Assembly: GCF_015169395.1 (NCBI RefSeq)
Contig: NZ_CP063458.1
Span: 6,014,001-6,078,000 of the forward strand
DNA from: Humisphaera borealis
Lineage (GTDB): Bacteria > Planctomycetota > Phycisphaerae > Tepidisphaerales > Tepidisphaeraceae
Reading direction: 5' to 3'
Length of the DNA: 64,000 nucleotides
Part shown: one piece after another, positions 11,643-27,050 of the stretch
How positions within the stretch are numbered: the stretch's first letter is position 1
How the letters are laid out: every line of letters begins with the position of its first letter
Translations under genes and position numbers: made by a program
Notes under the pieces: model-generated
Databases searched by the model: none
Told to the model about the DNA's origin: nothing
Seen by the model: only the letters and a program-made list of their open reading frames with translations

Positions 11643-12137
11643 TCATTGCACCGCCGGCGGGGTGGGTACCACGCTCGGCGGATTCTGTCGGGCCTTCTTG
11701 CCCTGGAGAAAGATCTCCAAGGCTCTGGACTCGAGTTCCGCACGGCGGTCTTCCCAGGCCGCGCGGCTCCATATCTCCAGGTGATCGCGGACACCGACGA
11801 GTGTCAGTTCCCGCGTCATGCTTTCGTCCCGGAAGATCCGTTCCGGGAGAAGCACTCGGCCTTGTTTGTCCCACGGCAAGCGGGACGCCATGCCGAACAC
11901 CATCTGATTAAACGCGAGCATCTCTTCGCTCGGAATCATTTCGCCAGGCTCGTTCATGTGGAGGTTCTCGTACACCTTTTCGGGGTACAGCCACCACACC
12001 CGGTTCACGCCGCGAAAGCAGTAGAACGATTCGCCAAACTCCAACGGGATCGCGCGGCGGACCTCGATCGGGACGAGAATTCTCTTCTTCTCGTCGCAGA
12101 TGATTTCATATTCGCCAGTCAGGACTGGGTGCGGCAT
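11643..12137 (-). CDS. mraZ: Transcriptional regulator MraZ
   Basis: A 164-residue AbrB-fold DNA-binding protein; MraZ represses its own operon and in some bacteria other genes. Two SpoVT/AbrB-like repeats are visible: GEYEIICDEKKRILVPIEVR at 7-26, and DKQGRVLLPERIFRDESMT in the second half. The family is usually about 145-150 residues; this one has a longer Pro-rich tail. The stop codon falls in a short hairpin (TGACCGA ... TCGGTC). It is normally the first gene of dcw, just before rsmH, but here it follows ftsQ and a membrane protein. Confidence 0.93.
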   Translation of the reverse strand: MPHPVLTGEYEIICDEKKRILVPIEVRRAIPLEFGESFYCFRGVNRVWWLYPEKVYENLHMNEPGEMIPSEEMLAFNQMVFGMASRLPWDKQGRVLLPERIFRDESMTRELTLVGVRDHLEIWSRAAWEDRRAELESRALEIFLQGKKARQNPPSVVPTPPAVQ

Positions 12138-13294: not shown

Positions 13295-14263
13295 CTACCG
13301 TCCGCCGTCGGCATGCGCACCCTCCTGCGTCGCCGGCTGAGCGGGGTAGGTCACGGTTTCGAAACGGATGTCAATCCAAGGCTGGCCGGCATCGATCCGG
13401 CCGAACTTGGCAACGATCTGCTTCATGACTTCCAGCTTGCGCTCGACGGTCACCTCGACTATGCGGTCACTCCGCTTGATCGCGGTGCCCCAGCGGATCT
13501 CGCTGCCATGGCGGGTCATCAGGACAATCTGGGCCTCCCGTTGATCCAGACGACCGCCATAGTTCGAGACGTTGATTCGAAGGACTTCCTCGGCGAATGG
13601 CAGCCCGTGCAGAAGCCGCGCCAGGTCGATCCCGGCTTGAAGGTCGTCTCCCGCCCACTGCTTGCCGGCAACGACCGGGGCCGGGTTGCGGATGCCTTCG
13701 ATGATCCGCAGATTTACCCGGCCGTTGGCAAAAAGCAGTTGCCCGAGCTGATCGGCATCAAACCACTCAGGTAGCTTGATGCCCTTTTCGTCGACGAACC
13801 AATAGCGGGAGTCATTGTCGTAGACCAAAGCGACCGGCGTGCGGAAGTCGCAGTCGACCTCAATCGTGTCGCCGGCCGATTCGCGGAAGGTCCGCCGGAC
13901 CGAACGCACCTTCGACACCCAGGGGTTGGCCTTCAGCCGAGCGTTGACGTCAACCAGGGCGTTCCGGTCGAAGACCGACGACGCCTTGCCCGGCCGAAAT
14001 GATTCGCAAAGGTTGTGGGCGACCAGGTCGGTCATCCAGGCCGGACGACTGACAAAGGCGATCGTCGGCAGGGTCGCGACCGATCGGTCTGCGATCGTCT
14101 GCCGAAGATTGCCGACCAGCCAGGCAAAGCCGCCTACGAACAGGATCGCGAAGGTGGTGTTGATGGTGGCGCGACGTATGAAACGCCGACGCGCCAACTC
14201 GGCGTCGGTCTCCGGCCGTATCGGGGGTGCTTCACGTCCTCGGCGGTTGGCGGCTTTAGCCAT
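13295..14263 (-). CDS. ftsQ: FtsQ/DivIB-like division protein
   Basis: A 322-residue bitopic protein. The N-terminal cytoplasmic part is basic, followed by one membrane helix (INTTFAILFVGGFAWLVG), a POTRA-like region (VFDRNALVDVNARLKANPWVSKVRSVRRTF) and the beta domain with VALVYDNDSRYWFVDEKG. The phrase NPWV.KV followed by valid-residue beta strands is typical of FtsQ. It follows ddl, the usual dcw neighbour. I prefer the ATG at 14263 (MAKAANRRG); a GTG at 14335 is also possible. FtsQ recruits FtsL and partners to the divisome. Confidence 0.85.
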   Translation of the reverse strand: MAKAANRRGREAPPIRPETDAELARRRFIRRATINTTFAILFVGGFAWLVGNLRQTIADRSVATLPTIAFVSRPAWMTDLVAHNLCESFRPGKASSVFDRNALVDVNARLKANPWVSKVRSVRRTFRESAGDTIEVDCDFRTPVALVYDNDSRYWFVDEKGIKLPEWFDADQLGQLLFANGRVNLRIIEGIRNPAPVVAGKQWAGDDLQAGIDLARLLHGLPFAEEVLRINVSNYGGRLDQREAQIVLMTRHGSEIRWGTAIKRSDRIVEVTVERKLEVMKQIVAKFGRIDAGQPWIDIRFETVTYPAQPATQEGAHADGGR

Positions 14264-14443
14264 GGTGGGTGCAACAGCGGAAACCAGGGAATCAGAACGG
14301 TCCGCGGGAGGTCTTACCCGGCGATGCGTTGGCACGCCGAGAGGTCACCCGCATCCTTCTATTCGGCAAGGCGGGTCCGAAAACGTCATCCAGATTTCGA
14401 TTTATCGGACTTTGTGCTGGGGCTTCTCTGAGCCACGAAGGGG

Positions 14444-19536: not shown

Positions 19537-21123
19537 TCAGACCGCCGGAACCGCCTGCAGGGTCCGCCTTGGCGGACGCGACGACTTGGTTTGCCGATTC
19601 TCGCCCTGTTCTCCGTCGAGAGCCTCCGCGTCCGCCAGGGCGGACCCTACGAGAGCATCGGCCCGGGCGGATGCTGCGTTTCGCGCATGTCGTGTCACGC
19701 TGTATAGCAATCCGAGTGCGGCCGAGGTGATGACCATCCCGCTGCCGCCGGCACTGATAAGCGGCAGGCTCAGGCCCTTAGTCGGCACGCTCACCGTCGC
19801 GACGGCGATGTTGATCGCGGCCTGCAGGCCGACCATCGAAGCCACGCCGAACGCCAGCAACCGGCCAAAGTCGTCGCGGTTCCGCCGCATGGTTTCCCAC
19901 GCGACCAGCAGAATGCCCAGGTAAAGGGCGACCACGAGCACAGCGCCGCCCAGCCCGAGTTCTTCGCAGATCACTGCGAAGATGAAGTCGGTCGTGTCTT
20001 CCGGCAGGTAGCCGAGCTTCTGGACGCCATTGCCCAGACCCCGGCCGGTCAGCCCACCGGTCGTGAAGCTGAGCAGGCTCTGAATCATGTGGTATCCCTC
20101 GCCCTGCGGACTGGCGTAGGGATCGCGGAATGCCAGGATTCGGCGCAGGCGGTAGTCCTTGGCGGTGATGAACCAGATCGCGCCCGCAACCGCCGGGATA
20201 AGAATGATCGAGATGTGCCACAGTTTTACGCGCCCCGCGAGGAGCATCGTGAGAATGCACATCCCGATCAGCGCTGCGGTGCCGAAATCCTGGATGACCA
20301 CCAGCAGGCAGAGGATGCCGACCGCGGCGATCACCGGCATAAAGCCACCGACGAACTTCTGCATATCGGTCCGCGGCCGGGTCAGCCACCAGGCGGTGAA
20401 GATGACCGCGCCCCACTTGGCCAGTTCGCTGGGCTGAACCTGGATCGGCCCGAGCTTGATCCACCGCCGGGCACCGTTAATCGCCGTGCCGATGCCGGGA
20501 ATCAGCACCGCCACGCAGGCGGCCGTCGCGACGACCAATATCCAGAACACCGGCGAGGCGATCAACGGGCCATCGAAGCGTGCCAGCCTTCGGTAGTCGA
20601 TCCGCCCGACAACAAAGTAGAGCCCGGCCGCCAGCGCGACGTAAAGAAGCTGCTTGGAGCCCAGTTGCGTCCACCGCCAGAGGCCCGGGCGGGTGACGGT
20701 CAGTATCGTCGGCGCGCTTTCGACGCCTGATTCGTCCAATGCCGTCACGCGGTAGACCGCCGCGTCGCCCTGGGGGCCGGTCGCGTCGTGATACCTGGTG
20801 TGGGGTTTACGAAGGGTGTCGAGCAGATCAAACGGACCGGTATCGGACCGGCCGCGATAGATGCGATAGCTGACGACGGCCGAATCGCGATCCGGGCTCC
20901 AGGAGAGGTCGATGCCGTCGGCCGAGGCCGCCGCGACGACATTCACGGGCCGCGCCGGCGAGGTTTCCCGAGGCCCGGCAGGGTCGGGAGCAGGAGCGCG
21001 GACGATTGCGCCGCTGAGCGACGTCGAGGCGCTCTGCACCATCACGGTCCCGAACGCCAATAGCGCCAGAACACAGAGGGTCAGCAGGTCGCGCGACCGC
21101 AGACGATAGATCGAAGCTTCCAC
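19537..21123 (-). CDS. ftsW: FtsW with an inserted fibronectin type III domain
   Basis: A 528-residue SEDS glycosyltransferase that polymerises lipid II at the septum with a class B PBP. SEDS motifs are clear: NGARRWIKLGPIQVQPSELA, LPEDTTDFIFAVICEELGL (with the Asp of the catalytic loop) and PTKGLSLPLISAGGSGM, with about ten membrane helices. Unusually, residues 55-145 between helix 1 (about 12-31) and helix 2 form a fibronectin type III domain (DGIDLSWSPDRDS, VSYRIYRG, TRYHDATG, YRVTALDESGVES). This domain should face outward and may bind wall polymer or a divisome partner. The C-terminal 40 residues cross two GTAGGG-type palindromes. murD and ftsI are not in the window. Confidence 0.93.
   Translation of the reverse strand: MEASIYRLRSRDLLTLCVLALLAFGTVMVQSASTSLSGAIVRAPAPDPAGPRETSPARPVNVVAAASADGIDLSWSPDRDSAVVSYRIYRGRSDTGPFDLLDTLRKPHTRYHDATGPQGDAAVYRVTALDESGVESAPTILTVTRPGLWRWTQLGSKQLLYVALAAGLYFVVGRIDYRRLARFDGPLIASPVFWILVVATAACVAVLIPGIGTAINGARRWIKLGPIQVQPSELAKWGAVIFTAWWLTRPRTDMQKFVGGFMPVIAAVGILCLLVVIQDFGTAALIGMCILTMLLAGRVKLWHISIILIPAVAGAIWFITAKDYRLRRILAFRDPYASPQGEGYHMIQSLLSFTTGGLTGRGLGNGVQKLGYLPEDTTDFIFAVICEELGLGGAVLVVALYLGILLVAWETMRRNRDDFGRLLAFGVASMVGLQAAINIAVATVSVPTKGLSLPLISAGGSGMVITSAALGLLYSVTRHARNAASARADALVGSALADAEALDGEQGENRQTKSSRPPRRTLQAVPAV
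19558..19650. repeat. Inverted pair of TCCGCCTTGGCGGA hairpins inside ftsW
   Basis: GCAGGG + TCCGCCTTGGCGGA at 19558-19577 and its inverted partner at 19629-19650 lie within the last 35 codons of ftsW. They match the element at the greA stop (27822-27842). They are translated as LVGSALADAEA and SRPPRRTLQA. Confidence 0.85.
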
Positions 21124-25739: not shown

Positions 25740-27050
25740 AGGGCAATCGCATCTCCTTTTGTCGATGGTTGTGTTTTGTACGGGTTGCGCTTTCTAACTT
25801 CTCTCGCTATCACTCCTTCACCGGTCGCGAAGCTTCGCTGGTAACAACTTTCATCTCCTGAAACGGAGCTTCGCCATGGATGGCCCTGCGACCAGTGGTA
25901 CCCTGCGCGCGTTTTCCAACCTCCCCGATCCTCGCGGCTGCAACGTGATTCACAAACTCCACGACATCCTCGTCATCTCCGTCTGCGCCGTTATCTGCGG
26001 CGCCGACGGCTGGGTCGACGTTGAACTCTATGGCAAGAGCAAGCTCTCCTGGCTTCGAACCTTCCTGGATCTTCCCCACGGCATCCCCTCTCACGACACC
26101 TTCGGTCGCGTCTTCGCCAAGCTCCATCCCGACGCCTTCGAGCAGTGTTTCAACGCCTGGGTCGGCGCGATCGCACAGTCCGCCGGCGGACGACTGATCG
26201 CGATCGACGGCAAGGCCATCCGCCGGTCCTTCGAACACGCCTGGGCCAGGAACAACATGACCCACATGGTCAGCGCGTTCGTCGACGCCCACCGGATGGT
26301 CTTCGGCCAGGTCGCCGTGGATGACAAGAGCAATGAGATCGAGGCGATCCCGCGGCTTTTGGGCCTGTTAGACATTCAGGACGCGACGGTGACGATCGAT
26401 GCCGCCGGCTGCCAGACGCAGATCGCCAGACAGATCGTCGATGCCGGCGGCAACTACGTGCTGTCGGTGAAGGAGAACCAGCCGAGGACCAGGCTTCGCC
26501 TCGTCCGACGCTGCACGCGAAGGTCAGGAAGCTGCTGGACGAAGCGATCCTGGGCGGCATGAAGGACGTGAGCCACGGCGTCCACGAGGAGTTCGACGCC
26601 GACCACGGCCGGCTGGACACCCGCAAAGTGTGGGTGATGGACGAAGTGCACTGGCTCGGCGACCTATGTCAGCAGTGGCCGGGACTGGCCGGCGTGATCG
26701 CGGTCGAACGCAAGCGGGAGGTGCTTGCCGGCAAGAGCAGCGTCGAGCGGCATTACTTCATCAGCAGCGTCGCAGGGACCGACGCCAGGGCGATGGCGGC
26801 GGCGATCCGCGGCCACTGGGCCATCGAGAACAAGCTGCACTGGCAACTGGACGTGAGCTCCCGCGAGGACGAGCGGCGGATCCGCAAAGGCTATGGTGCG
26901 GAGAACTACTCCCGGTTGTGCCGGCTGACGCTCAATCTTCTCAAGCGGGACAAGAGCATCAAAAACGGGATCCACGGGAAACGGTTAAAGGCAGGTTGGG
27001 ACGAGCACTACCTGCTCCGTCTGCTAACGACCTGAACATGCAATCGCCCT
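25740..27050 (+). mobile_element. ISAs1-family insertion sequence with target duplication
   Basis: Terminal inverted repeats are AGGGCAATCGCAT at the left and, read inward from the right, AGGGCGATTGCAT. The direct repeat GTGCAGGGGCA flanks the element at 25728-25738 and 27051-27061. The size, about 1.31 kb, fits the ISAs1 family. It landed between murE and greA, apparently in intergenic DNA. The intact ends and matching flanks suggest a fairly recent insertion, although the transposase is broken. Confidence 0.9.
25876..27035 (+). pseudogene. ISAs1-type transposase, frameshifted
   Basis: The first part (25876-26484) encodes an ISAs1/H-repeat transposase N-terminus: NLPDPRGCNVIHKLHDIL, ICGADGW, LPHGIPSHDTFGRVF, IAIDGKAIRRSF (first catalytic Asp) and VTIDAAGCQTQIA. 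The frame then slips. The rest (26508-27035) continues with PTLHAKVRKLL, YFISSVAGTDARAMAAAIRG, HWAIENKLHWQLDVSSRED (catalytic Glu) and LTLNLLKRDKS. A 23-bp stretch (26485-26507), bounded by CCGA on both sides, explains the shift; without it the protein reads ENQPTLH as in relatives. The element is therefore probably not autonomous. Confidence 0.9.

Follow-up and report, generated by a model that had tools for sequence, protein, structure and literature searches.

A fibronectin type III domain inserted in loop 1 of FtsW from the planctomycete Humisphaera borealis

Few bacterial membrane enzymes are as conserved as FtsW. In the FtsWIQLB complex of Pseudomonas, FtsL R38 contacts FtsW E45 as well as the h2 loop within extracellular loop 4, the loop that holds D275, the putative catalytic aspartate (PMC10764723). 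Planctomycetes lack FtsZ throughout the phylum (PMC5147048, PMC6952346), and in Planctopirus limnophila the deletion of FtsW resulted in a shape change only (PMC6952346). Here we describe an ftsW gene from Humisphaera borealis, located in a window of 64,000 nucleotides (NZ_CP063458.1, positions 6,014,001 to 6,078,000; Table 1). Its product had the whole SEDS core and the invariant motifs of Pseudomonas FtsW (8bh1, 8p1u; PF01098/TIGR02614), including the TDF aspartate, and the gene was located among mur genes, as in other FtsW. Unlike any other FtsW that we saw, however, it carried approximately 107 extra residues in loop 1 that form a fibronectin type III (FN3) domain.

Table 1. Features of the ftsW locus; positions are those of the window and residues those of FtsW.
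Feature	Position	Strand	Evidence
ftsW, 528 aa, GTG start	19537..21123	-	Single open frame, PF01098, TIGR02614, shared cluster order
Transmembrane helix 1, residues 10-33	21025..21096	-	AlphaFold2 model helix; conserved N-terminus
Pro/Ala-rich linker ahead of FN3, residues 38-53	20965..21012	-	Sequence; pLDDT 63-70 in domain model
Insert in loop 1, residues 40-148	20680..21006	-	Missing from every other FtsW recovered
Fibronectin type III domain, residues 54-145	20689..20964	-	FN3 profile, seven-strand model, Foldseek
Transmembrane helix 2, residues 153-174	20602..20667	-	AlphaFold2 model and alignment with relatives
SEDS glycosyltransferase core, residues 156-481	19681..20658	-	PF01098 match; invariant residues
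D379 (loop 4), equivalent to putative catalytic Asp D275 of Pseudomonas	19987..19989	-	Invariant column, TDF alignment
ftsQ-like	13295-14335	-	Position and one membrane segment; 38-41% identical to relatives

The protein matched PF01098 (E = 2.4e-86; 290 bits, cut-off 26.4), and its best NCBIfam model was ftsW TIGR02614, with 320 bits, slightly below the equivalog cut-off of 337.5, as compared to 248 bits for the rodA model. Only one further SEDS protein was encoded in the genome, and it preferred the RodA model. Based on model scores and mur-cluster position, we assign the protein to FtsW rather than RodA, in agreement with an earlier sequence-only reading of this DNA. Neither the SEDS core nor its conserved residues are disrupted: D376-F382 were among the invariant residues of the FtsW alignment, and D379, which did not vary across 46 sequences, fell on the TDF motif in the alignment with FtsW of Pseudomonas. 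In the full-length AlphaFold2 model, the core was predicted at high confidence and the helices followed one another in the expected order, as read without a membrane reference.

The cluster order murE-murF-mraY-ftsW-murG-murC-murB-ddl-ftsQ-like was common to relatives, and the FtsQ-like protein had no Pfam or NCBIfam match. The mraZ gene (11643-12137, minus strand), which usually starts the mur cluster, was instead located at its opposite end, beyond the ftsQ-like gene. A DDE transposase in two frames (DDE_Tnp_1_assoc and DDE_Tnp_1; 25876-27035, plus strand) was located directly upstream of murE, and ftsI lay away from the mur cluster, at 4.375 Mb of the genome.

Same-family relatives aligned to residues 1-39 of FtsW and then again from about residue 149. 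The first 39 residues were 56-74% identical to relatives, the GTG start codon sits at a position conserved among them, and the genome was assembled as a single 7.19 Mb contig. An open frame with both ends homologous to relatives, in a one-contig genome, makes a frameshift or misassembly unlikely. Third-position GC was 0.78 in the insert and 0.80 and 0.82 in its flanks; the codon-position base composition of the insert thus matches the rest of ftsW, indicating native-looking coding sequence. From the VQSA motif to helix 2 we counted 123 residues versus 16 in most close relatives, which accounts for the extra residues in loop 1. This stretch had a median length of 17.5 residues in 46 FtsW proteins and ranged from 13 to 63 in all others seen, bearing out the expectation that loop 1 is normally short. 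The two predicted helices that flank the insert agree with a location in the outer loop that joins helices 1 and 2, which would place the FN3 outside the membrane.

The domain itself was recognized by an FN3 profile made from 25 planctomycete FN3 sequences, from which the FtsW under study was excluded. This profile matched FtsW with an E value of 4.2e-25 over all 92 positions, while the best E value among 1000 composition-matched shuffles was 2.3, and the profile also picked up titin, chitinase A1, and other FN3 domains by sequence. The match nearly coincides with the FN3 claimed at 20685-20965 by the sequence-only reading. The W, Y, Y, R, D, and Y columns of the domain were common to the 25 FN3 sequences, and hydrophobic and aromatic residues of the FN3 core were kept in the insert. 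Pfam fn3 (PF00041) scored FtsW at 14.8 bits, under its curated cut-off of 25, and the isolated domain had no Pfam fn3 match at E 0.01; the same was true of 20 of the 26 lineage FN3 sequences scanned alone, and we attribute the weak score to the insensitivity of the Pfam model to short divergent copies of this lineage's FN3 subtype. AlphaFold2, run on the isolated domain with its FN3 alignment, yielded a model with seven strands and a mean pLDDT of 88, with blocks inside the domain at 91-96. Thus, the FN3 fold that had been proposed for residues 55-145 was obtained. The top Foldseek PDB match for this model was the Fn3-like protein 3mpc, and nearly all of the matches listed were FN3 domains (67 matches at E ≤ 0.001). 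In the full-length model, residues 58-119 had pLDDT < 50 and the FN3 was not resolved, since no other FtsW covers that stretch. Taken together, profile and domain model confirm the insert as a genuine FN3 domain, predicted to be well folded and seven-stranded.

FN3 was absent from FtsW in all other same-family genomes where FtsW was recovered (23 of 23), and there was no other case among the 137 FtsW/RodA frames tested, which included 61 loci outside the family. A genome labelled Humisphaera (Tepidisphaeraceae; L078) had FtsW without FN3, and no FtsW was recovered from the sole genus mate (G001, 65% complete) or from G019 (58% complete). The sequence-only reading had called for a search of FtsW proteins for FN3 domains across planctomycetes; scans of 397 class genomes and 392 phylum genomes showed no second FN3-bearing FtsW among the matches listed, although such scans could overlook a rare, very divergent case, and doubtful cases were read directly. 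In other genomes, none of the FN3-matching frames in the size range of about 260-600 aa proved to be FtsW. Three phylum matches that seemed to span FN3 and FtsW (G584, G567, and G673) were ordinary FtsW with a short loop, joined to FN3 by chance gapped alignment. The FN3 therefore looks like a lineage-specific add-on to FtsW, known from one sequence only. Our literature search returned no paper mentioning FtsW together with fibronectin type III, and an FN3-bearing FtsW appears unreported in the literature searched.

The closest sequences to the insert, at 31-43% identity, were FN3 repeats from large proteins encoded by family members. Planctomycete FN3 repeats, such as those of a 2298-aa frame at 2.22 Mb and a 4558-aa frame at 4.75 Mb of the H. 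borealis genome, belong to the same FN3 subtype and have the motifs W, Y, YxxxR, and YRVTA-D..G.ES in common with the FtsW FN3. They occur, however, as tandem arrays in large proteins, whereas FtsW, a polytopic membrane enzyme, contains just one copy. In this genome, the frames with FN3 repeats were 1478 to 4558 aa long; the 4558-aa open frame (G000:C1:4744460-4756957, plus strand) had more than 25 tandem repeats, and one large FN3-repeat protein had PA14 and malectin domains as well. A recent internal duplication was ruled out, as the best FN3 within the same genome was just 35-38% identical to the insert, and with no near copy remaining, the insertion was probably not recent. An FN3 module of the kind found in the large FN3-repeat proteins of the lineage was probably inserted in frame by recombination.

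Two other same-family FtsW proteins had loop 1 inserts. One (L079, 4923-6209, plus strand) had a zinc-ribbon-like insert (EEHCRGCNYLLKNQAGQQCPGCGLEL; CxxC...CPGC), predicted on the outer side, and the other (L074, 6001-7323, plus strand) had an extra stretch of about 47 residues, probably helical (EVRLQELKGQRTAALAK...). Both inserts were located at exactly the same point as the FN3 and were unrelated to it, indicating that loop 1 is an insertion-tolerant site. The FN3-bearing FtsW, L079, and L074 did not group together in our tree, in which several deep within-family branches were unresolved.

On balance, we consider it somewhat more likely than not that a normal FtsW gained one FN3 in periplasmic loop 1 as an accessory module for spacing or docking, rather than as a replacement for FtsZ-dependent recruitment. 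The FN3 would stand outside the membrane on the flexible Pro/Ala-rich linker, where it may tune what FtsW touches, and it would not be required for FtsW activity. Pseudomonas FtsW E45 aligned with S35 of our protein, about five residues ahead of the insert, so that the FN3 would be tethered beside the FtsL-contact face. Although this docking or spacer role is preferred, it is nearly as likely that the FN3 is a passive insert in a permissive loop, retained since it folds harmlessly and without a division function. Such a reading, for which we hold a considerable but lesser expectation, is consistent with the acceptance of unrelated inserts by loop 1 in other family members and with the confinement of the FN3 to a single lineage. 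It is also consistent with the dispensability of FtsW in P. limnophila (PMC6952346), which suggests that planctomycete FtsW may be under relaxed constraint. On the other hand, the full FN3 core was kept despite the low identity to its nearest relatives, which suggests selection for a folded domain at least.

Rather doubtful, in our view, is a more specific role in which the FN3 would be a lineage-specific regulatory or docking module in contact with the loop 4/FtsL face of FtsW or with an envelope partner, taking over the control that belongs to FtsQLB in other systems, with loop 1 as a general plug-in site in the family. Slightly more doubtful is a role in binding an envelope polymer, either peptidoglycan or another, by which the FN3 would anchor or position the synthase. 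This role would fit a domain of a wall synthase that is predicted to lie outside the membrane, and bacterial FN3 domains are common in polysaccharide-active proteins; several of the PDB matches were glycanases. In fold and sequence profile, the domain resembled FN3 domains found in glycan-active enzymes (chitinase A1, 1k85; Clostridium Fn3-like, 3mpc), but these are appended to secreted enzymes, while the FtsW FN3 is inserted in a membrane glycosyltransferase. Moreover, FN3 domains in glycan-active enzymes are mostly spacers, and the FN3 or partner domain that the sequence-only reading had suggested looking for in the cognate PBP was present in neither of the genome's class B PBPs.

The sequence-only reading had also proposed that the FN3 could stand in for recruitment contacts that disappeared with FtsZ, which we regard as highly improbable. 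The FtsZ family was indeed not found in this genome by a search that was positive in 13 of 14 control genomes, and the FtsB/DivIC and FtsL Pfam models had no match in it. However, FtsL and FtsB are small proteins that are easily missed, and the FtsL model matched just 2 of 14 controls, so that their absence is weak evidence. In addition, FtsZ-less relatives have FtsW without FN3; given that FtsZ loss is phylum-wide and the FN3 lineage-restricted, the domain cannot be how planctomycetes in general cope without FtsZ. An artefact of frameshift, misassembly, or a wrong start is the least credible explanation and close to negligible, considering the open frame with matching codon composition, the homology of both ends to relatives, the conserved start, and the single contig.

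While an FN3 in FtsW alone does not explain FtsZ-less division, our results indicate that in loop 1 natural evolution can add folded domains to FtsW without destroying the enzyme. The finding is useful for attaching tags to FtsW on its outer side, as well as for asking how FtsZ-less bacteria control septal synthesis.
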